Source: a virus. Taken from it: DNA of 28,490 nt. Location of the stretch: IMG/VR virus record IMGVR_UViG_3300042890_001989, positions 1 through 28,490 of that record. The stretch is one strand, 5' to 3'. Of the stretch, positions 12,330 through 24,688 are shown piece by piece. Position 1 is the first letter of the stretch, and the number at the start of each line of letters is the position of its first letter. The notes under the pieces are model-generated. The model saw only the letters and a program-made list of their open reading frames with translations, was not told where the DNA came from and ran no database searches. The translations under genes and the position numbers were made by a program.

Positions 12330-15300
12330 ATGGCTGAAAAAACTATTGGTATTAAAATACAATTGAATGGCGTAGATACGGTTATTTCCGATATTAAAAC
12401 ATTTGAAAATGAAATTAAAAAGGCTCGTGAAGACCTTAAAGGTATAGAGATTGGTTCTGCTCAATTTAAGAAATTATCATCTGAAATTGGTCTTGCAGAA
12501 TCTCAAATGTTGGGATTGATTCAATCAACAAAACGTCTTACAAAAGAACGTGAGATTGAAGGTATTGGTAAATTAGGTCAAGGTATTGCATCATCTTTTG
12601 CGGCTGCTACAGCGGCTGTATCTTTGTTTGGAAATGAGAGTGAAGAAGTACAAAAAGCCGCAACGGCAGCATCAAACTTGTTAACATTGGCTTTATCTGC
12701 AAGGGGTATCGCTGAGGTTAAATTGGGTGCTCAACTTGTATTACGTACTATCGCTGAAAGAGCCGCAGCCAAGGCTAACGAACTTAGTAGGGCAGCAAAC
12801 CTTGCCGAGGTTGCGTCATTGGATGCATCAACTACAGCCTTTGCCGCAAACACAACAGCAGAGGCGGTAAACACAACTGTTACCCAAGCCAACTCAACGG
12901 CTACGGCTCAGGGAACAATTGAAGCAAACCTTAATACAGGTGCTCAGGCTGCTAATACTGTCGCAACAGGGGCTGCCGCAGGTGCTACAACTTTATTAAC
13001 AAGAGCCCAAGTTGCTCTTTATACTGCCATAGCGGCAAATCCAATTCTTGCTCTTGTTTCAGCATTGGGACTTTTGGTTACTTTATTCGTTGCCTTTGGT
13101 AAAGAACAAGACAAAGAAATTGTTAAAACAAAAACATTAAATGAATTAAGAAACGAAGGTGTTGCTCAAACTGAAACTGAGATTACAAAGATACAGATTC
13201 TTACTTCAATAATCAAAGATAATAATTCTTCTTTAGATGCTCGTTATGGAGCATACGAACAATTAAAGAAGTTGGTACCAGAACTTTCTGATTTGACATT
13301 AGAAGAGGCAGAAAGTCAGGGTTTATTAAATGTTGCCATTGAACGTGAAATTCAGTTAATTGGATTAAGAGCAGAACAAAAAGCAATTGAAAATTTCTTG
13401 GTTCAAGAAGCAGAAAAAAGAATTAAGGCTCAAGATGATGCCAGATTAAAAGAAATTGAAACCTTAAAAGAAGTAACTTTTTGGGAAGGTGTTAGAAATG
13501 GTTTATTAAAAGTATATTATGGTATTGATGTTGGAAACAAAAATCAAAAAGAAATTGATAGATTAGAAAAAGGTTCTGTTGCCACCAAAAAAGATTTGGC
13601 TAACATAACCAAACAAATTGTTACATTGGAAGGTCAAGCCGACAAAACCAAGAAAAATAGTAAAGCGTCTACTGAGAAAGCAACTCAGGCTGAAGCAAAT
13701 AGAAAAAAACAATTGGAAGGATTGGTTGATGCTTTAGCGAAACAAGTTGATTTACAATCAAAATTATTATTCCAAACGTTCTCACTTGAAGGACCTGATG
13801 CAACAATTTTGGCTAACTTGGAAGATAGAGTTGGTAAATCTGAAGCGTTGGTTGAGGTTATTAGAAAACTAAAATCAGTTTCAGAACTTTATAATGAAAC
13901 TCAAATGGAACTTGTCGGACTTGAAGATGAAGTTGGTCAAGCATTTTTGAAAGCAACCAAGGCAGGTGAGGGATTATTTGATTCATTAAAAAAGGGTGAT
14001 GATAGAACAGCAATACAACAAAATCTTACCAAATCACTTGAAGACTATAGAAAGACAATTGAAGAAGTTAGATTGGAATCTGGTAAGTATTTCAACCAAG
14101 ACCAATTAAATCAATTATCAAATCTTGAATTAATTTATGAGGACTTAACAAAGTCATTACAAAAATTTGTTCAAATTTCACCAGTATTTGAAACAAAAAA
14201 ATGGGAAAAAAATTTAGTTGATTTTGCTCTTGCAACAGGAGAAATATTAACTGACCCATATAAAAGAACTGAAGAAGAAATTAACAAGGCTAAAGCCTCA
14301 GCATTAAAAAGTATTCAGGATAGTGAAAAAGAATTTGTAAAATCATTTGTGGCTGCTGAAAAAGCGGCAAATGCTCAAAGAATTAAAAACATTGAAGCCC
14401 AAAAAGGTGGTGCTGAACAGTTGGTTGAACTATTCAAATCATTTGAAGAATCAGGTCAAGCGGCATTTCAAAACTTACAAAAACAAGGTATTGAGATTCT
14501 TAAGTTTGAAGATGGTGTTAGAAAAACTGCTACTCAAATTGATATATTAAATGCGAAATTAAGAGAACTGGCTCCTGAGGCAAGAAAAGGTTTTATCATC
14601 CAAAATGCTGAAGAAATTGCCAAAGAATACGACAGCGTATTTATACCTTTGGTTTTAAGAAAAGAAGAAGAGTTAAAAACTTTACAGGATAAGATTAGAA
14701 CCAGAAACTTTGAAGAAGATGTAAAATATAAAGATGCGTTAGTTTTATTAGAAACAGAATTAGCAAATCAAAAAATTGATATTTCAACTTTATCTTATGA
14801 AGAAAGATTAATTCTATTAGAGAAATTCTTAAAGAAAGAAGTAGAAAAAACCAAAGAGGCTGAAGATGAAAAGGCGGAAGCAAGAAAAAAAACCTTAGAC
14901 ACATTACAACAAGCATTTGACATGTTTAATGATTTAATTGGTGAAACATCATCATTAATTCAACAGAAGATTGCTATGGATTTGAAGATGTTGGAAAGGT
15001 CGTTTAATGAATCATTAACCACAGTTGTTGGTGATACAGAAGAAGCAAATCAAAAAAGATTGGAATTAACAAAACAATATGAAATCCAAAAGGCTCAAAT
15101 TGAAAAAGAAGCAACAATCAAATCATTACAGGCTCAAAAACTACAAGCGATAGCAAGTGCCGCATCAGCAATCATCGCAGCACAGGAATTATTACCACCA
15201 TTTAACGTAATTCAAACAGGAATTGTTGCGGGTGTTGCGGCAGCACAAGTCGCTTTAATTCAACAACAAATTGAACAAGCAAGGTCAATGGCTGGTGGAG

Positions 15301-15608
15301 GTATGATATTCGGTGCATCACATGAGAACGGTGGAGTTATGGTTGGTGGAGGATACAACCTTGAAGGTGGTGAATCTGTTATCAACAAAGTATCTACAGT
15401 TCAGTATGGAAGTTTATTATCTTCAATTAACCAAATGGGTGGTGGTAGAGCAATTACAAACAGCACACAGAACGGATTGATGGAAGAAAGATTAATGCAA
15501 GCAATAGCAAAAACAAAAAATGAACCTATAAGAGCGTATGTCTTGAACTCAGAAATAACAAGTGGTCAAGCAATCAACAGAAGATTGAGTGAACTTGCGT
15601 CCTTATAA
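12330..15608 (+). CDS. Tail tape-measure protein
   Basis: 1,092 residues, the longest protein here, mostly helical and coiled-coil-like. An Ala-rich region (about 85-220) leads into a hydrophobic stretch (about 234-256, PILALVSALGLLVTLFVAF). A long Lys/Glu-rich coiled-coil body follows, then a second hydrophobic region (about 955-1000) and a Gly-rich end with HENGGVMVGGGYNLEGGESV, the usual tape-measure C terminus in Bacteroidota phages. It sets tail length; at about 0.15 nm per residue it would give a tail near 160 nm (a rule-of-thumb inference). It starts 4 nt after the hub-like gene. Confidence 0.9.
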   Translation: MAEKTIGIKIQLNGVDTVISDIKTFENEIKKAREDLKGIEIGSAQFKKLSSEIGLAESQMLGLIQSTKRLTKEREIEGIGKLGQGIASSFAAATAAVSLFGNESEEVQKAATAASNLLTLALSARGIAEVKLGAQLVLRTIAERAAAKANELSRAANLAEVASLDASTTAFAANTTAEAVNTTVTQANSTATAQGTIEANLNTGAQAANTVATGAAAGATTLLTRAQVALYTAIAANPILALVSALGLLVTLFVAFGKEQDKEIVKTKTLNELRNEGVAQTETEITKIQILTSIIKDNNSSLDARYGAYEQLKKLVPELSDLTLEEAESQGLLNVAIEREIQLIGLRAEQKAIENFLVQEAEKRIKAQDDARLKEIETLKEVTFWEGVRNGLLKVYYGIDVGNKNQKEIDRLEKGSVATKKDLANITKQIVTLEGQADKTKKNSKASTEKATQAEANRKKQLEGLVDALAKQVDLQSKLLFQTFSLEGPDATILANLEDRVGKSEALVEVIRKLKSVSELYNETQMELVGLEDEVGQAFLKATKAGEGLFDSLKKGDDRTAIQQNLTKSLEDYRKTIEEVRLESGKYFNQDQLNQLSNLELIYEDLTKSLQKFVQISPVFETKKWEKNLVDFALATGEILTDPYKRTEEEINKAKASALKSIQDSEKEFVKSFVAAEKAANAQRIKNIEAQKGGAEQLVELFKSFEESGQAAFQNLQKQGIEILKFEDGVRKTATQIDILNAKLRELAPEARKGFIIQNAEEIAKEYDSVFIPLVLRKEEELKTLQDKIRTRNFEEDVKYKDALVLLETELANQKIDISTLSYEERLILLEKFLKKEVEKTKEAEDEKAEARKKTLDTLQQAFDMFNDLIGETSSLIQQKIAMDLKMLERSFNESLTTVVGDTEEANQKRLELTKQYEIQKAQIEKEATIKSLQAQKLQAIASAASAIIAAQELLPPFNVIQTGIVAGVAAAQVALIQQQIEQARSMAGGGMIFGASHENGGVMVGGGYNLEGGESVINKVSTVQYGSLLSSINQMGGGRAITNSTQNGLMEERLMQAIAKTKNEPIRAYVLNSEITSGQAINRRLSELASL

Positions 15609-15627: not shown

Positions 15628-18000
15628 ATGTTACGAGTAATAGATTTAGATATTGAAGGAACCTTAACTGGTGATACACGAGTTGAAGAAATAGCGATGG
15701 TTGAAATGCCTGCGATTGAGCAGGATTTTATCTATTTTGAAAAACAAGAATTTGAGTCGTATAATGATTATCCACAAGCGGCAACAACAAATGCTTGTAG
15801 GGCTGTCAAATGGGCTGAAGAGAATGGTTGGGGAAGTTGTCTCCAAACCGAAGGTAAAAATAGAGCGAATCAATTATGTAATCGTGAGAATATAACTGAA
15901 GAAACAATTGCTCGTATGTCAGCATTTAGAAGACATCAACAACACAAAGATGTTCCGTATAGTGAAGGTTGTGGTGGTATTGCTTGGGATGCATGGGGTG
16001 GTGATGCTGGTGTTGATTGGGCTGAAAGAAAGTTGGAACAGATTAGAAAGTCAAAAGAAAAAATGGCTGAAGTAGGTCCAAGAGGTGGAATTAAAGAAAG
16101 TGATAAAGCACCAAAATCAGATACACCAAATAAAAACCCTGAAGGTGAAGGTTCAGCAAAGGGTGATGCAAGTGGAAAAAGAGGAGCCAAGGTTACAGCG
16201 GAACAAGAAAAAACATTACAGGGAAAGGTTGATGATTTCAACGAAAAAGAATCAAATACCAAAAATGGAAATGCTACATTGGGAGCATTAAAATCTGTAT
16301 TCCAAAGAGGATTAGGAGCGTTCAATACATCTCACTCCCCTCAAGTAAAATCAGCAGAACAATGGGCATATGCTCGTGTAAATGCGTTTCTTTACTTGTT
16401 AAAAAATGGTAGACCTGAAAATCCAAAATATACAACAGATTACGATTTATTACCTGAGAAACATCCAAAGTCAGGTAAAAAAGAAGAGATGGATTATGCT
16501 CCAACATTACCTGGTTATGTAAATTATCCAAGTGGTGATACAAGTAATGATATGTTAATTAAACCTGTATTATTTGTTGAAAGAGAACCAGGTGAAGATA
16601 AAAAAGCATATGTTTCCCGTTGTACAGCATACCTAATTAAAAATGAAGGTTATGACTCTGACCAAGCATACGCCATTTGTCAAAGTGAGTCTGAGGATTT
16701 TGCAAAGGGTGAGAAGGTCTCATTTGATTATGATGATACCTTGAATACTCCAAAGGGTCGTGGACTTGCCATGGGGGAAATTAGAAGTGGTTCTGAGGTG
16801 TATATCATTTCAGCAAGAGGTTCAAAAGAAGGAATCTATCCAATAGCGGATGAATTGGGTATTCCACATGATAGAATATTTGCTACTGGTTCAAACAGAT
16901 TAAAAGTTCAAAAGGTTAAAAACTTGAGAATTGATAGACACTACGATAACAATGAAGATGTTATTGATGAACTTGGAAGAGTGGGTCAACAGTTTTGTTT
17001 TACTTGTGAACCTGTGGAATACAATTATTCTGAGGAAGAGTTGGAAGTAAAAAACTTATTAACTTATTTAAGAAGAACTGACTTACAAAAGTTTGAAGCA
17101 GTTGTTGGAGCAATGAGAGGTAGAACAGCAGACGAAGTTAAGAAATTAAATCATAAAAACCCAACAAATTATTTCAAATATGAAAGAGTTTTATCTGGTT
17201 CTCCTGACAGAGATTTCTGTATGTCAATTGAAGGTAGATATTTTCGTAGAGTTGAAATAGATGTTTTAAGGGATACAAATATTGAGTTTGGTCATGAAGG
17301 TCAACCATACTCAAAATGGTTGTATAAAGGTGGACCAAATTGTGTTCATGCTTGGAGAAAGTATATTGCTCAAGGTGATGTACTTGCTGACCAAGGCATG
17401 GCTGAAGGACTGGCAGGAACAGCACCTAAATCAATGCCAAATAACGGATATTATTCTGAAGAAACAAAACGAAAGTCTGAGGTGGCTTACATTGTTTCTC
17501 AAGGAATGTCAAAAGAAATGTTCAAAGCAGATACTGAAAAGAGGATGGTATATTCTCCATTGATGATTCCAAACATGTTAATACCAAGAATGGATGAAGT
17601 TAGTAATGAAAAGTATTATGTTAAATTCACACCTCAAGTTATAGAAAAAATTCAAAATCTTTATATGATTGAAAAGAGGATGGATAAAACCAACTACGAA
17701 CATACAGAAGAAAAAATGTCTGATGTTGTAATGGTTGAGTCTTGGTTAGTTTCTGGTAAATCAGATAAAGCATATCAATTAGGTTTCAACAGGGATAGTA
17801 TTCCTGATGGTACTTGGATGGGTGGGTTCAAAGTGTTGGATACAAAAGAAGGAGATAACATTTGGAATAATTTCATCAAAACAGGCAAGGTAAAAGGATT
17901 CAGTGTTGAAGGTAATTTCATCACCAATTTTTCCCGTCTAAAAAATGACGAATATTTATTACAAGAAATCATAAACATATTAAATAAAATAACCGATTAA
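15628..18000 (+). CDS. Multidomain prohead protein: XkdF-like protease with HAD-like and MuF-like parts
   Basis: 790 residues, a mosaic. Residues 1-37 are an XkdF-type start (MLRVIDLDIEGTLTGDTRVE). Residues 52-137 are a Cys/Trp-rich domain with NQLCNRENIT and GGIAWDAWGGDAG, as in phage capsid-maturation proteins. A charged linker (150-215) precedes RGLGAFNTSHSPQVKSAEQW (227-246). VSRCTAYLIKNEGYDSDQAY (329-348) is a motif seen in prohead proteins. Residues 364-450 are a HAD-like domain: DYDDT (367-371), ISARG (394-398), Lys near 426-431, and D436/D440/D444. Residues 523-583 are MuF-like (YSKWLYKGGPNCVHAWRKYI). Residues 640-770 are XkdF-like, with EH (His692), VESW (Ser705) and KGFSVEGNF (Ser759). 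Probably processes scaffold and capsid protein and joins the portal vertex; the HAD role is unknown. Confidence 0.75.
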   Translation: MLRVIDLDIEGTLTGDTRVEEIAMVEMPAIEQDFIYFEKQEFESYNDYPQAATTNACRAVKWAEENGWGSCLQTEGKNRANQLCNRENITEETIARMSAFRRHQQHKDVPYSEGCGGIAWDAWGGDAGVDWAERKLEQIRKSKEKMAEVGPRGGIKESDKAPKSDTPNKNPEGEGSAKGDASGKRGAKVTAEQEKTLQGKVDDFNEKESNTKNGNATLGALKSVFQRGLGAFNTSHSPQVKSAEQWAYARVNAFLYLLKNGRPENPKYTTDYDLLPEKHPKSGKKEEMDYAPTLPGYVNYPSGDTSNDMLIKPVLFVEREPGEDKKAYVSRCTAYLIKNEGYDSDQAYAICQSESEDFAKGEKVSFDYDDTLNTPKGRGLAMGEIRSGSEVYIISARGSKEGIYPIADELGIPHDRIFATGSNRLKVQKVKNLRIDRHYDNNEDVIDELGRVGQQFCFTCEPVEYNYSEEELEVKNLLTYLRRTDLQKFEAVVGAMRGRTADEVKKLNHKNPTNYFKYERVLSGSPDRDFCMSIEGRYFRRVEIDVLRDTNIEFGHEGQPYSKWLYKGGPNCVHAWRKYIAQGDVLADQGMAEGLAGTAPKSMPNNGYYSEETKRKSEVAYIVSQGMSKEMFKADTEKRMVYSPLMIPNMLIPRMDEVSNEKYYVKFTPQVIEKIQNLYMIEKRMDKTNYEHTEEKMSDVVMVESWLVSGKSDKAYQLGFNRDSIPDGTWMGGFKVLDTKEGDNIWNNFIKTGKVKGFSVEGNFITNFSRLKNDEYLLQEIINILNKITD

Positions 18001-18837: not shown

Positions 18838-19788
18838 ATGGAAAACAAGAAAAAATTATCGTTTAACTACGATTTAACGGCTCTTCCAACTTACAACTCA
18901 TATGGTTCAGATATGTTGATTAAAGCAATCTTGGGATTGACTTTACCAAAATATGCTACAATCAGACCAAATTTGAAAGGTACAACTGAAAAAGTTGGTT
19001 GGTTGGAAAACGATGTTATTCTTCAAGACTTGTCTTGCGGATTTGACCCTACTGGTACAACTTACCAAGAATTGGTAACAGTTGACTTATGTAATAAAAA
19101 AGTGAACCAACAATTATGTCCATACGATTTGTATGATACTTATTTGTCTCAATCTTTAACAAATGCTAACTTCCAAGAGACAGTTCCATTTGAAGAAGTT
19201 ATCTTGACAGATATTTCAAACAGAATCGCAAACCAAGTTGAAAAACAACTTTGGCAGAACACAGTTGCAACTGGTGGTACAATCTACAACAGTGCTTGTT
19301 TCAACGGTGTTGGTGCGTTGATTACCTCAGGTAACGGTGCTACACAAATCGCTTACTCAGCAGCAACTCCATCAAATGGTTTGGATGTATTCACTACTAT
19401 CTACCAAAACATCCCTGCTAACGTATTACACAGAGACGATTTAACTATCTTCTGTTCTTACGCTAACTACAGAGGTTTGGTTGCTTCTATGAGAAACAAC
19501 TCATTCGTGAACTTGTTCACAATGGACACTGCTGGTACTACTTCAGGTCAAGACTGGGTATTGATGTTACCAGGTACTAACGTTAAAGTTATCCCAACTG
19601 TAGGTTTGGATGGTGTTAACGCTTACTACGCAGGTGCTTCAGGATACTACATGGTTGGTATGAACAACGAAATCATGACTGTGAAATCAATCTACGACCC
19701 TTTTGAGGATATCGTAAAAATCCAGGCACACGTAACTTACGGATTAGGTATATTTGACCCAGCATCATTCTGTGTTTGTAAATCTTAA
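18838..19788 (+). CDS. Major capsid protein
   Basis: 316 residues, resembling the capsid proteins of flavobacterial phages: a polar N terminus, LPTYNSYGSDMLIKAILG (about 16-33), CPYDLYDTYLSQ (about 98-109), a long helix FEEVILTDISNRIANQVEKQ (about 120-139) and a beta-rich end. An HK97-type fold is assumed. The gene stands out by codon choice: AAC, TAC, TTC and ATC prevail over the AAT/TAT/TTT/ATT of its neighbours, as expected of the most abundant protein. Its leader AATTAAATAAA is A-rich, suiting Bacteroidota translation initiation. It follows the scaffold-like gene by 22 nt. No large N-terminal delta domain is visible, in keeping with a separate scaffold. Confidence 0.8.
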   Translation: MENKKKLSFNYDLTALPTYNSYGSDMLIKAILGLTLPKYATIRPNLKGTTEKVGWLENDVILQDLSCGFDPTGTTYQELVTVDLCNKKVNQQLCPYDLYDTYLSQSLTNANFQETVPFEEVILTDISNRIANQVEKQLWQNTVATGGTIYNSACFNGVGALITSGNGATQIAYSAATPSNGLDVFTTIYQNIPANVLHRDDLTIFCSYANYRGLVASMRNNSFVNLFTMDTAGTTSGQDWVLMLPGTNVKVIPTVGLDGVNAYYAGASGYYMVGMNNEIMTVKSIYDPFEDIVKIQAHVTYGLGIFDPASFCVCKS

Positions 19789-20442: not shown

Positions 20443-21618
20443 ATGCCAATCAGACCATATAGTCCAAACCCACACCAACCAATTAATCAACCTTCTTTGA
20501 ATAGTATGCTTTACCCAAAAGGTTCAAAGCAACCAGTTCAGGTATGGGGTTCTGTGATGAATGTCTATAAAGCACCACCATCAGATGTTACCCCAACTCC
20601 TACACCGAGTATTACCCCGACATCAACAGTAACGCCTACACCAAGTATTACACCTACTTTAACAAGTACACCAACAAATACTCCTACACCAAGTATTACA
20701 CCTACAATTACTATTACTCCAAGTGTTAGTTTATCACCTACTTTAACACCAACACCGACTATTAGTTTGAGTCCAACACAGACACCTACAAACACACCAA
20801 CACCTTCAACATCACCAATTCCATCAGGAACAACTGAAGCCAATACTTACTTATCAGCAGTTGTTGATGCGGGTGGAACAGGTATTACATCTACCGTATC
20901 TGCGGCTACAAGAACATTATTTACATCACTTGTTAGTAATGGATTGTATAATAAAATGACTGCTATGTATCCAATGTTAGGTGGTGTATCAGCAAGTGCT
21001 AAATTTAACGCATTAAACCCTGTTGATACAAACGGAGCATACCGACTAACCTTTAATGGTGGTTGGACTTTTAATGCTAGTGGAGCAACTCCAAATGGTT
21101 CTAATGGATATGCTAAAACATATTTAACAGGAAATACTATAAATAGATATTCACAACACATGTCATTCTATTCATCAACCCAACAAACAGGAAACATACA
21201 AGATATGGGTTGTAGAAGTGGTAGTGGTGGTGGAGGAACTTATAGTGAATTAGTTATTTGTTTAACTGCTTTTGGTGGTAATTTTAGGTCATATAATATC
21301 AACTCTATTGGACTTGGTAATGATACAACAGCAAATACAGGAACAACAGGATATTTTGTATCATCAAGGGAAACTGATACAAAGTCATATATGTATAAAA
21401 ATGGTTCATTAGACCAAAGTGGAACAACCACAACAAATGGAACAATAGCATTTGACTTCTTTATTGGAGCAACAAATGATAATGGTAGTCCATTAGCATA
21501 TTCAAGTAGAAGATGTAGTTTCGCATCTATTGGAACAGGATTAACACCAGCAGAAATAACAACATTATCAACAATAATAAACACTTGGGCAACAGCCATA
21601 AGTAGAAACACATATTAA
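20443..21618 (+). CDS. Pro/Thr-tethered lectin-like virion protein, copy 1
   Basis: 391 residues in three parts. A 48-residue N-terminal piece (MPIRPYSPNPHQPINQP...) probably anchors it to the virion. A TP tract covers 49-128 ([19 protein letters not shown] and similar). The C-terminal ~260 residues are a beta-rich LamG/concanavalin-A-like domain with [52 protein letters not shown] and a closing helix LTPAEITTLSTIINTWATAI. This domain type is common on surface proteins of environmental phages and probably binds sugars on cells. The C-terminal domain is duplicated in the gene at 22040, but the N-terminal anchor differs. First gene of the second late operon. Confidence 0.75.
   Translation: MPIRPYSPNPHQPINQPSLNSMLYPKGSKQPVQVWGSVMNVYKAPPSDVTPTPTPSITPTSTVTPTPSITPTLTSTPTNTPTPSITPTITITPSVSLSPTLTPTPTISLSPTQTPTNTPTPSTSPIPSGTTEANTYLSAVVDAGGTGITSTVSAATRTLFTSLVSNGLYNKMTAMYPMLGGVSASAKFNALNPVDTNGAYRLTFNGGWTFNASGATPNGSNGYAKTYLTGNTINRYSQHMSFYSSTQQTGNIQDMGCRSGSGGGGTYSELVICLTAFGGNFRSYNINSIGLGNDTTANTGTTGYFVSSRETDTKSYMYKNGSLDQSGTTTTNGTIAFDFFIGATNDNGSPLAYSSRRCSFASIGTGLTPAEITTLSTIINTWATAISRNTY
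20587..20826 (+). repeat. Thr/Pro coding tract in fibre-like gene, copy 1
   Basis: About 80 codons of TPT/TPS-x repeats ([16 protein letters not shown] and variants) between anchor and lectin-like domain. The reverse strand is open here (GVGV-type), a by-product of the repeat. Confidence 0.85.
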
Positions 21619-21839: not shown

Positions 21840-22043
21840 ATGTATAGAGTGGATGATATAGCATTTGATGAATATAAAGTTCAGAGCGTTGAGATGGACT
21901 TAGAAAGTTGTGATGTACATTTACGAGTTTTATTCAGTAAAGAAGATAAAAGAATTGAAAGAAGAAAGTCATTTAGATTTGAAACAGATTGTAATGTTGA
22001 TGTAAATAAATTGATTGAAGAATTAAAAAGTATAATTAAATGA
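21840..22043 (+). CDS. Hypothetical 67-residue protein
   Basis: 67 residues, highly charged, with an [11 protein letters not shown] stretch and a Lys/Glu helix at the end. No family recognised. It overlaps the next gene's start by 4 nt (ATGA) and follows its neighbour after 1 nt, so it is co-translated with the two lectin-like genes. The segment from 21626 to 22043 separates the two paralogues. Confidence 0.65.
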
Positions 22044-23182
22044 GTCAGGTTTTTTATAGAAAAAAGTTTAGTGATTATCTTGGTGAACAAAGAGCCATAG
22101 ATGATATTGTTCAATTCTATCAACCTGATGCACCATTACCATCACCAACTCCTACGCCAAGTATTACACCAACATCTACATTAACACCTACACCATCTAT
22201 AACACCTTCAATTACACCTACTTTAACAAGTACACCTACTCAAACACCTACTGCGAGTATTACACCTACTTTAACAAGTACACCTACCCAAACACCTACT
22301 GCGAGTATTACTCCTACTTTAACAAGGACACCTACTCAAACACCTACTCCTACAATCACACCTTCATCAACACCAATTCCAAGTGGAACAACTGAAGCAA
22401 ATCTCTACTTATCTACAGTTATTGGTTCGGGTGGAACAGGTATTACACCTACAGTATCAGCCGCTACAATAACATTATTTACAGAATTAGTATCTAATGG
22501 ATTGTATAATAAAATTGTTGCAATGTATCCAATGTTGGGTGGAAATGCTGCAGGTTGTAAATTCAATGCTAAAAACCCACTTGATACAAATGCAGCCTAT
22601 AGATTGAGTTGGGCTGGTGGATGGAGTTATAACGCAAGTGGTGCTACTGGTAATGGTTCTAATGCTTTTGCGATTACACACTTAACAGGAAGCACATTGA
22701 GTAGAACTTCAACTCACATGTCTTATTATTCATTAACTCAATCATCCGCTGGAAATCAACTTGAAATGGGTTGTAGAAGTGGTAGTGGGGGTTCAGGAAC
22801 TTATAGTGAATTCGCAGCAAACTACATTGCGTTTGGTGGAAATTACAGACAATATAATATAAACTCAATTGGTTTGGCTACGGATTCAGCATCAGCCAAT
22901 AGTGCTACAACAGGTTATTTTGTGGCATCAAGAACAAGTGATAGCACAACATACTTGTTTAAGAACGGAGCGTCTAATTTGAGCGGAACTACAGCAACAA
23001 ATGGAACAATTGCATTCTCGTTCTATCTTAACGCAACAAATGATAACGGAACACCAACCTCGTATAGTACTAAACAAATAGGTTTCTCATCATTAGGAAA
23101 TGGATTAACACCATCAGAAATCACTACCCTATCAAGCATAGTCAATACTTGGGCAACAACTATAGGTAGAAACACATATTAA
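22040..23182 (+). CDS. Pro/Thr-tethered lectin-like virion protein, copy 2
   Basis: 380 residues. A short N-terminal anchor ([20 protein letters not shown]) is unlike that of copy 1. The TP tract covers about 34-115. The C-terminal domain aligns with copy 1 along its length ([69 protein letters not shown]), with roughly two thirds of residues the same by eye. Differences cluster in presumed loops, as if binding specificity had diverged. The TP tract contains a recent 48-bp tandem repeat. Likely a second exposed binding protein of the same virion, attached elsewhere. Confidence 0.75.
22139..22384 (+). repeat. Thr/Pro coding tract in fibre-like gene, copy 2
   Basis: About 82 codons of TPT/TPS-x units between the anchor and the lectin-like domain. 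It contains the exact 48-bp tandem repeats at 22211-22354. Confidence 0.85.
22211..22354 (+). repeat. Three tandem 48-bp repeats
   Basis: Units at 22211-22258, 22259-22306 and 22307-22354, each coding a 16-residue [16 protein letters not shown]-type block. Units 1 and 2 differ at one base; unit 3 has several changes. Being in frame, gain or loss of a unit would change spacer length by 16 residues without breaking the gene. Confidence 0.9.
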
Positions 23183-23183
23183 G

Positions 23184-23621
23184 ATGATAATACTAAACGA
23201 AGGATATAATAATGCAAACGCAACGTGTTCAAGAAACAAAAACTTGACTGGTTCAGTTTGTTATTTGTTTTCATTTAAGCATAAACTTTCACAGGAGGTT
23301 TGGAGGCTCGTTCCATTTAGAATTCAACCAAGTGTTGGTTATTCACCTGGTTATGATTTATTTAGTATTACAATAGACCCAAGTCAACCTGAGGCATTTT
23401 TGACAGGGGCAACAATGACAGGACAAACAAATGTTCACTTAATAGAAGGTGAATATTATGTTAAGGTGTGGGAGCAATCAACAGCCTTATCAGGAAATAC
23501 AAATCCTGCTTTGGCATATGATGTAGTTTATGAGACCATTGCTCAGGTGAACTACTCAGCCTCAACTAACCCTATCACTTACTCTGGAACAAGTGATATT
23601 TATAAGATATACGAAGGATGA
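23184..23621 (+). CDS. Virion structural protein upstream of the portal
   Basis: 145 residues, beta-rich, with YLFSFKHKLSQEVWRLVPFR (about 27-46), YDLFSITIDPS and VHLIEGEYYVKVWEQ. It resembles a family of Bacteroidota phage proteins encoded beside fibre genes, probably an immunoglobulin-like sandwich. It starts 1 nt after the lectin-like copy 2 gene and ends in an ATGA overlap with the portal gene. Possible roles are a neck or whisker attachment point for the lectin-like proteins, or a small connector; neither is shown by sequence. Confidence 0.55.
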   Translation: MIILNEGYNNANATCSRNKNLTGSVCYLFSFKHKLSQEVWRLVPFRIQPSVGYSPGYDLFSITIDPSQPEAFLTGATMTGQTNVHLIEGEYYVKVWEQSTALSGNTNPALAYDVVYETIAQVNYSASTNPITYSGTSDIYKIYEG

Positions 23622-24688
23622 TTCAAGTAGAGAAATTAACATTTGCGGTAGATACCCTAACCAATTTCACAGAAAATGTGAATAGAAACAATGCGTTTGT
23701 TAGTTGGGGCTTAGATAACATGTTCCCTGAAGAACTATACAGATTGTTGGACATGTCTCCAATTCACAACGCATGTGTTCGTTCAAAAGTAGATAACTGC
23801 TTTGGAGCAGGATATGTTAACGATTACAAAGTTAACTCAAAACAAACATTAAATGACGTTGGAAGACAATTATACTTTGAACTAATTGTTACAGGAAATT
23901 TATTCTTGGAAATTGTATGGAGACAAGACAGGTCTCAAGGTATTGCAGGTTTTCACATTGTTCCATCAAAATACATGAGGGTTCACAAACCAATTGAACT
24001 TGGAGCACCAGCAACCAAATACCTTTATTGTAGAGATTGGGCTAATTGGAGAAAAGCAGGTATGATTGAGTTTTCTGAGTTTGACCCAATGAACTTTACT
24101 GATAGACAAATCGTTCATATTAGAATGTTCCAACCAGGTTATGAATACTACGGAGCACCTGACTATCTATCTACCATCAATGATATACGTCTAAACCACC
24201 AAATAACGGTCTATAACTTAGCCAATTTAATAAATGGAGCAAACCCTTCACTATGGGTACATTTCAACACTCCTGCTCCTGATTCTGAAAACGAACAAAC
24301 TCAAATATTAAGAAACATTGAGAACCGTTATCAGGGTTCAGAAAACGCAGGTAGGGTAATTGTATCTTATGGAGATTCAAATGAAAAACCTGACATCACA
24401 CAAATCAGTTCAAACCTACAACAAGGTTTCTATTCTGAGGTGTTTGAGTTGGTCCAAAAACAAATCCTTTCAGGTCATAAAATTGTGGACGGGTCTTTGA
24501 TTGGACTTCCAAACCCTGGTGGATTTTCATCATCATCTGAGCAATTACAAACAGCCTATCAATTGTTCTTAAAGACATCTATTAACCCATTACAGACATT
24601 TATGAACCGTGAGTTAAAAGATGTATTTGAATTAATATATCCAGGTCAAGAAATAGATTTGACCATAACCCAACAAAATATAGTGTAA
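23618..24688 (+). CDS. Portal protein
   Basis: 356 residues, short for a portal but with the family's order. The N-terminal region has FVSWGLDNMFPEEL (27-40) and IHNACVRSKVDNCFGAGY (49-66). A beta domain carries LIVTGNLFLEIVWR, FHIVPSKYMRVHKP and IVHIRMFQ. Then come YYGAPDYLSTINDIRLN and a clip/stem region, and the C-terminal wing has GFSSSSEQLQTAYQLFLKTS and NRELKDVFELI. Portals form the dodecameric DNA channel that binds the large terminase and head-tail adaptor. The adaptor gene follows 1 nt later, as expected, but the terminase lies about 20 kb upstream, which is unusual. Confidence 0.85.
   Translation: MIQVEKLTFAVDTLTNFTENVNRNNAFVSWGLDNMFPEELYRLLDMSPIHNACVRSKVDNCFGAGYVNDYKVNSKQTLNDVGRQLYFELIVTGNLFLEIVWRQDRSQGIAGFHIVPSKYMRVHKPIELGAPATKYLYCRDWANWRKAGMIEFSEFDPMNFTDRQIVHIRMFQPGYEYYGAPDYLSTINDIRLNHQITVYNLANLINGANPSLWVHFNTPAPDSENEQTQILRNIENRYQGSENAGRVIVSYGDSNEKPDITQISSNLQQGFYSEVFELVQKQILSGHKIVDGSLIGLPNPGGFSSSSEQLQTAYQLFLKTSINPLQTFMNRELKDVFELIYPGQEIDLTITQQNIV

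Follow-up and report, generated by a model that had tools for sequence, protein, structure and literature searches.

Introduction

Polyvalent proteins are phage chains in which several unrelated domains are combined, and in one account of them a C-terminal assemblin-like peptidase is a rare form, fusions to portal and MuF proteins are reported, and processing, packaging and injection are proposed (Iyer et al. 2017, PMC5512222). The internal proteins of T4 and the ejection proteins of giant phages are reported to be packed in the head, cut by the head protease and ejected (PMC10052503 for SPN3US). The main text of a general survey of phage protein mosaicism mentions neither proteases nor portals (PMC10684548). 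Proteins named XkdF that have a HAD region are present in UniProt (A0A6J7WUA4, A0A6J7WEB6, A0A6J7WLI9 and others), so that the combination of HAD and XkdF is already in the databases, and unexplained: these entries carry automatic names only, and no account of the HAD–XkdF fusion was found for them.

Here we analyze a 790-residue XkdF-type protein encoded in a 28,490-nucleotide stretch of viral DNA (IMG/VR record IMGVR_UViG_3300042890_001989, positions 1 to 28,490; the window). The HAD domain of this protein is of the same family as those of the UniProt entries (42-53% identity), and the window's protein has more modules. Like the polyvalent proteins of PMC5512222, it is a multi-domain chain with its peptidase at the C-terminus, and it fits the sequence-level definition of that class, by which at least two disparate domains share a chain encoded among packaging genes. 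It differs from them in that its protease is split, with the first segment ahead of small (25-140 aa), fast-shuffling modules. The split protease, the small fast-shuffling modules, the HAD payload, the copy of a capsid N-arm and the junction motif reported below were not found in the parts of PMC5512222 consulted or in the literature searched. For the internal proteins of T4 and the ejection proteins of giant phages, the cargo is encoded apart from the protease, whereas here the putative cargo is on the protease chain itself.

Results and Discussion

Layout of the split protease

The ORF was recovered at exactly the coordinates given in the initial annotation, and its layout is summarized in Table 1. 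That annotation had described an XkdF-like protease region at both ends of the protein, and this was upheld: Peptidase_S78_2/XkdF (PF14550) was matched at residues 629-763 (E=1.4e-10; 41.7 bits versus a curated cut-off of 24), and residues 1-41 match, by profile, the beginnings of insert-free XkdF proteins (iE 3e-3 to 1e-14). About 590 residues of modules separate residues 1-41 from the catalytic part (629-790), and we judge from these matches that the XkdF protease is genuinely split by module insertion, because in the insert-free proteins the N-terminal segment stops 7-13 residues before the catalytic part. H692 and S759 occupy invariant alignment columns among the relatives and are candidate catalytic residues. 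We take XkdF to be grouped with proteins of the assemblin-like fold.

The Cys/Trp-rich domain noted initially (CW; residues ~43-143) matches PHROG 2859 (residues 45-144, E=8e-14), and the layout now also includes DUF5824 (Pfam match at residues 187-263, E=4e-6 in the whole-protein search), D1 (288-313) and D2 (313-353), none of which had been recognized. The claim of a MuF-like segment was not borne out, as residues 467-627 had no Pfam match even at E<=10 and no PHROG match. In a full-length AlphaFold2 model, HAD, CW and some of DUF5824 were the only regions of good quality, the protease part was poor, and several of the linkers between modules were predicted to be disordered. A PDB search with the predicted model of the protease part returned nothing significant, and a PDB sequence search with the whole 790-aa protein returned no match.

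Table 1. Positions in the window of the ORF, its modules and candidate junctions, and the neighboring head genes
Feature	Coordinates	Strand	Basis
Whole ORF, 790 aa: XkdF-type head-maturation protease carrying module inserts	15628..18000	+	ORF; Pfam and PHROG matches
XkdF N-terminal segment, residues 1-41, apart from catalytic part	15628..15750	+	Profile match to the start of XkdF proteins lacking inserts
CW (Cys/Trp) module, residues 43-143	15754..16056	+	PHROG 2859; AF2 helical, blocks of pLDDT 73-92
Junction E-K-M-A, residues 144-147, CW/DUF5824	16057..16068	+	Junction enrichment; clean insertions at homologous point
DUF5824 module, residues 147-286	16066..16485	+	PF19141 E=2.7e-7 (segment alone), 4e-6 (whole protein)
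D1 module, residues 288-313, copy of N-arm of probable capsid protein	16489..16566	+	Profile-profile score
D2 module, residues 313-353, pattern RC..YLI...QAYAIC	16564..16686	+	Recurs at differing positions among relatives
Junction E-D-F-A, residues 356-359, precedes HAD	16693..16704	+	Junction enrichment; insertion comparisons
HAD domain, residues 360-460; D367, D369, T371, S395, K426, D440, D444	16705..17007	+	Alignment, profile, AF2, fold search
MuFa module, residues 467-600, 'MuF-like' family unproven	17026..17427	+	Conserved block; no Pfam match
XkdF catalytic part, residues 629-768	17512..17931	+	PF14550 E=1.4e-10; invariant columns
C-terminal tail, residues 769-790, predicted helix, N-F-S in front	17932..17997	+	Low-confidence model
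Probable scaffold protein, 269 aa	18006..18815	+	Position and conservation; directly downstream of protease in relatives too
Probable major capsid protein, 316 aa	18838..19788	+	Position and size
Portal protein	23618..24688	+	PF04860 E=1.6e-15; PHROG portal families

The HAD domain

Structure prediction and a fold search agreed with the earlier proposal of a HAD-like domain. The AlphaFold2 model of the domain reached a pLDDT of 94.4 and a pTM of 0.88, and HAD phosphatases headed the PDB fold search, the best solved folds being the KdsC-type capless phosphatases AQ2171 (2p9j, E=4.7e-4) and YrbI (E=3e-3). The domain shares 18% identity with the KdsC/YrbI phosphatases and is about 60 residues shorter, so their substrate is not transferable to it; a capless HAD form hints at a large or exposed substrate. 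The Asp set noted initially is likewise confirmed: in the model, motifs I (D367/D369/T371), II (S395), III (K426) and IV (D440/D444) are at or just past the predicted strands' C-terminal ends, as in HADs. In an alignment of 53 distinct homologous segments, the first Asp of motif I (D367), the Lys of motif III (K426) and the Asp of motif IV (D440) are present in all 53, the second Asp of motif I in 52 and its Thr in 47 (a few members thus lack one or other of the latter two), and motif II is Ser or Thr.

No Pfam family matched the HAD segment of this protein, which therefore falls outside the named HAD families; PHROG 8630 ('nucleotidase') was matched at residues 385-456 (E=9e-4). When the PDB was searched with the 53-member profile, HADs came first, led by a phosphoserine-phosphatase-like HAD (E=4e-4). 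A non-HAD Rossmann domain, for example an NAD-binding one, would account for other Rossmann folds coming close behind the HADs in the fold search, many of them dehydrogenases with only slightly weaker scores, and for the weak matches of nine members to ADH_zinc_N. However, we regard that identity as very improbable, given that HADs rank first both by profile and by fold, that the D/D/T, S/T, K and D set is conserved and that the commonest NCBIfam match is HAD-IIB. Based on profiles and the predicted fold, residues ~358-460 are accordingly considered a true HAD domain. In BFVD, the ten best matches (31-56% identity) all come from uncultured Caudovirales, and their UniProt names are XkdF, 'HAD-like' or uncharacterized protein. 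A genome search with the HAD profile confirmed none of 31 candidates for a bacterial copy, which is weak evidence of absence because one pattern was used.

D1 and the capsid protein

Matches of the first D1 profile to capsid proteins were weak (E 0.14-4), and only the profile-profile test was convincing: D1 scored 44.4 against the N-arm of the probable capsid protein (18859-18939), with 41% identity over 29 columns, whereas none of 200 column shuffles scored above 15.2. The resemblance suggests that D1, as a copy of the N-arm, may dock to the shell or share a binding partner with it. The pairing of D1 and N-arm was also observed in relatives, and its details co-vary in L046 and L037 (viral loci are numbered with the prefix L).

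Module shuffling among relatives

Eighty viral loci were kept from a first scan and 77 loci matched a HAD scan, and their ORFs were cut into segments with the module profiles; apparent frameshifts led us to leave L039, L044 and L131 out of the architectures. Among 82 complete homologous ORFs (some being one contig counted twice) there were 20 different module orders, with small modules filling the region between the XkdF N-segment and the catalytic part. The smallest form with HAD is XkdFn-D2-HAD-XkdFc (L113 and L124; 344-347 aa). Comparisons of close relatives revealed in-frame insertions of 366 bp at EHFA (L124 versus L126), 420 bp at an EEM/EKM junction (L034 versus L016 and L026 versus L025) and 327 bp (L019 versus L016). 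In these pairs exactly one module is gained or lost between flanks that are 87-98% identical, and in all but the last the inserted unit carries one more copy of the junction. Every complete form keeps the reading frame, and we conclude from these comparisons that the inserts behave as swappable cassettes.

In three close pairs, dN/dS was 0.02-0.35 in every module, indicating purifying selection. The dS of CW and DUF5824 (0.13-0.28) was below that of the rest in two of the three pairs, which fits recent exchange of these modules. In L117 (468-2966) and L120 (3738-6215) the N-segment piece with a MuFb module and the remainder of the protease are separate ORFs. A third ORF of ~130 aa, helical-looking, lies between the split pieces in both.

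A junction motif

Module junctions were counted in 41 dereplicated proteins with 199 module starts. The motif [DEN][FML][AS] was present near 64 of these starts, versus 11.4 +/- 3.4 when windows were drawn at random from those proteins (~5-fold enrichment), and FA alone near 47 versus 10.6 expected. It recurs at unrelated modules, with EEFA before DUF5824, EDFA before HAD, DEFA before CW and EDFA before DYPW, and is a candidate cleavage site; about two-thirds of junctions are without the strict motif, and, homologous modules not being independent samples, some of the enrichment may simply come along with the modules themselves. A second pattern, [DEKN][DEKNQ]M[ASDEN], was found at 24 of the 199 junctions versus 5.5 expected, and such M-type junctions may be what is left of start codons after gene fusion. 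In portal N-termini a loose F-[ASNDG] was seen by eye within the first 32 residues in 7 of 11 (strict count 6 or 7), a pattern too loose to count.

Other carriers of the modules

The modules also occur on other head-interior proteins. In L135, HAD and CW come ahead of an HK97-type S78 protease (PF04586 E=4e-21), the ORFs of L138 and L140 read like that of L135, and the L135-type locus adjoins genes that by eye resemble a MuF-type protein and a capsid protein. CW stands in front of ClpP-type head-maturation proteases (L157, L170) and within or after portal proteins (L190, L220, L189), DUF5824 follows portals (L053, L060), and in a weaker case CW is ahead of a scaffold-like protein (L215). A single 974-aa ORF of the cultured Roseobacter phage CRP-821 encodes CW (E=1e-21), DUF5824 and an S78 protease together with the capsid protein, a polyprotein that should need cutting to yield the shell protein. 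The cultured Salinibacter phage 2_3 is a further carrier of modules. In the Actinomycetia phage DSL-LC01, a module CWE is joined to DUF5824 by TEFA. The fusion singled out as striking in the initial annotation is therefore real but not a lone case: it belongs to a large family of cassettes that are shuffled among head proteins.

A small Gh-type module (GC.G.H.H...VYMPC) in protease/head ORFs of L178, L164 and L166 matches Pfam DUF3721 (E down to 6e-14), and L164 has an additional weak TUDOR-like module. Many viral contigs (L165, L188, L192, L195, L204 and others) encode free proteins of ~140 aa in which CW is combined with a C(S/T)NGKxR(I/V)G module, frequently through KFA, and which have no protease on the chain.

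Proposed function and alternatives

We consider it fairly probable that the protein is a 'polyvalent' polyprotein with the protease as its tether: small domains, among them HAD, would be loaded into the prohead on the protease chain, cut apart at the junctions and probably ejected. CW, DUF5824, D2, HAD and MuFa would be mini-domains on flexible linkers between the first XkdF segment and the catalytic part, and the chain would enter the prohead together with the scaffold, D1 possibly docking it to the shell. At maturation the protease would cut the junctions E/D-[F/M/L]-[A/S] and release the domains inside the head, some or all of which may exit with the DNA; HAD might then act early in infection as a capless phosphatase whose target is a nucleotide, a phosphoprotein or the end of a nucleic acid. 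Context argues strongly for the loading step, cleavage is moderately well indicated, and ejection and the HAD substrate are weakly so. We favor this explanation because the split XkdF holds strings of modules with a conserved HAD in 20 orders that change by single modules, and because the modules recur on S78- and ClpP-type proteases, portals, a scaffold-like protein and the CRP-821 polyprotein; the motif at unrelated modules, the disordered linkers, the purifying selection and the polyvalent precedent also speak for it. Among the roles floated initially for HAD, entry into the capsid is thus the best supported, whereas a structural insert is disfavored: relatives gain, lose and move the module, it also occurs on its own, its catalytic residues are retained, and it turns up again next to an unrelated S78 protease.

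Against a loading vehicle is the existence of stand-alone CW proteins, from which fusion to a protease appears not to be obligatory. A broader reading, which we hold tentatively, is that a cassette pool common to tailed phages is loaded via any prohead-lining protein (three unrelated protease families, portals, scaffold), freed at a common motif and docked here by the copied N-arm, with HAD as one payload. The modules could instead be assembly parts only, for scaffolding, docking or size-setting, that are degraded or expelled before packaging, with HAD idle or confined to assembly. Every carrier is indeed an assembly protein and the N-arm copy in D1 fits an assembly contact, but fast gain, loss and reordering are unlike an essential geometric part, and the retained catalytic residues and the minimal forms with just D2 and HAD (L113, L124) also make this unlikely. 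Somewhat less likely still is that the junctions are scars of recombination or gene fusion, where loss of stop codons has joined independent module genes in frame, perhaps with separate production from internal starts, and that cleavage plays no role. Many junctions do look like gene starts of the [DEKN][DEKNQ]M[ASDEN] type, ATG opens inserted units, and the pieces are separate ORFs in L117 and L120. However, F-type junctions (EEFA, EDFA) cannot be starts, the frame is kept in every complete form, and the junction Met residues have no excess of Shine-Dalgarno sequences, a blunt test given that real starts here are without them too.

Should loading and ejection be correct, phages of freshwater, marine and hypersaline waters would deliver interchangeable payloads by means of the protease that trims their shell, and cassettes on head proteases and portals would offer a simple rule for finding injected phage proteins. 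The orphan families DUF5824, the DUF3721-like modules and PHROG 2859 would become testable virion cargo, and the system would hint at ways of loading chosen proteins into phage heads.

Neighboring genes

The gene order at 1853-25343 of the window is unusual: terminase, tail-type genes (one of them for a probable tape measure of 1092 aa, 12330-15608), protease, scaffold and capsid protein are followed by the portal and a DUF6712 protein, and the portal is downstream of the protease in several relatives also. Gene starts in the window and its relatives have A-rich leaders and no Shine-Dalgarno pairing, as is typical of Bacteroidota, which is a weak hint of the host. Two related proteins (20443-21618 and 22040-23182; PHROG 15511/17104) each have long Thr/Pro/Ser repeats (TPTPSITPT) ahead of a C-terminal domain that is similar in the two.
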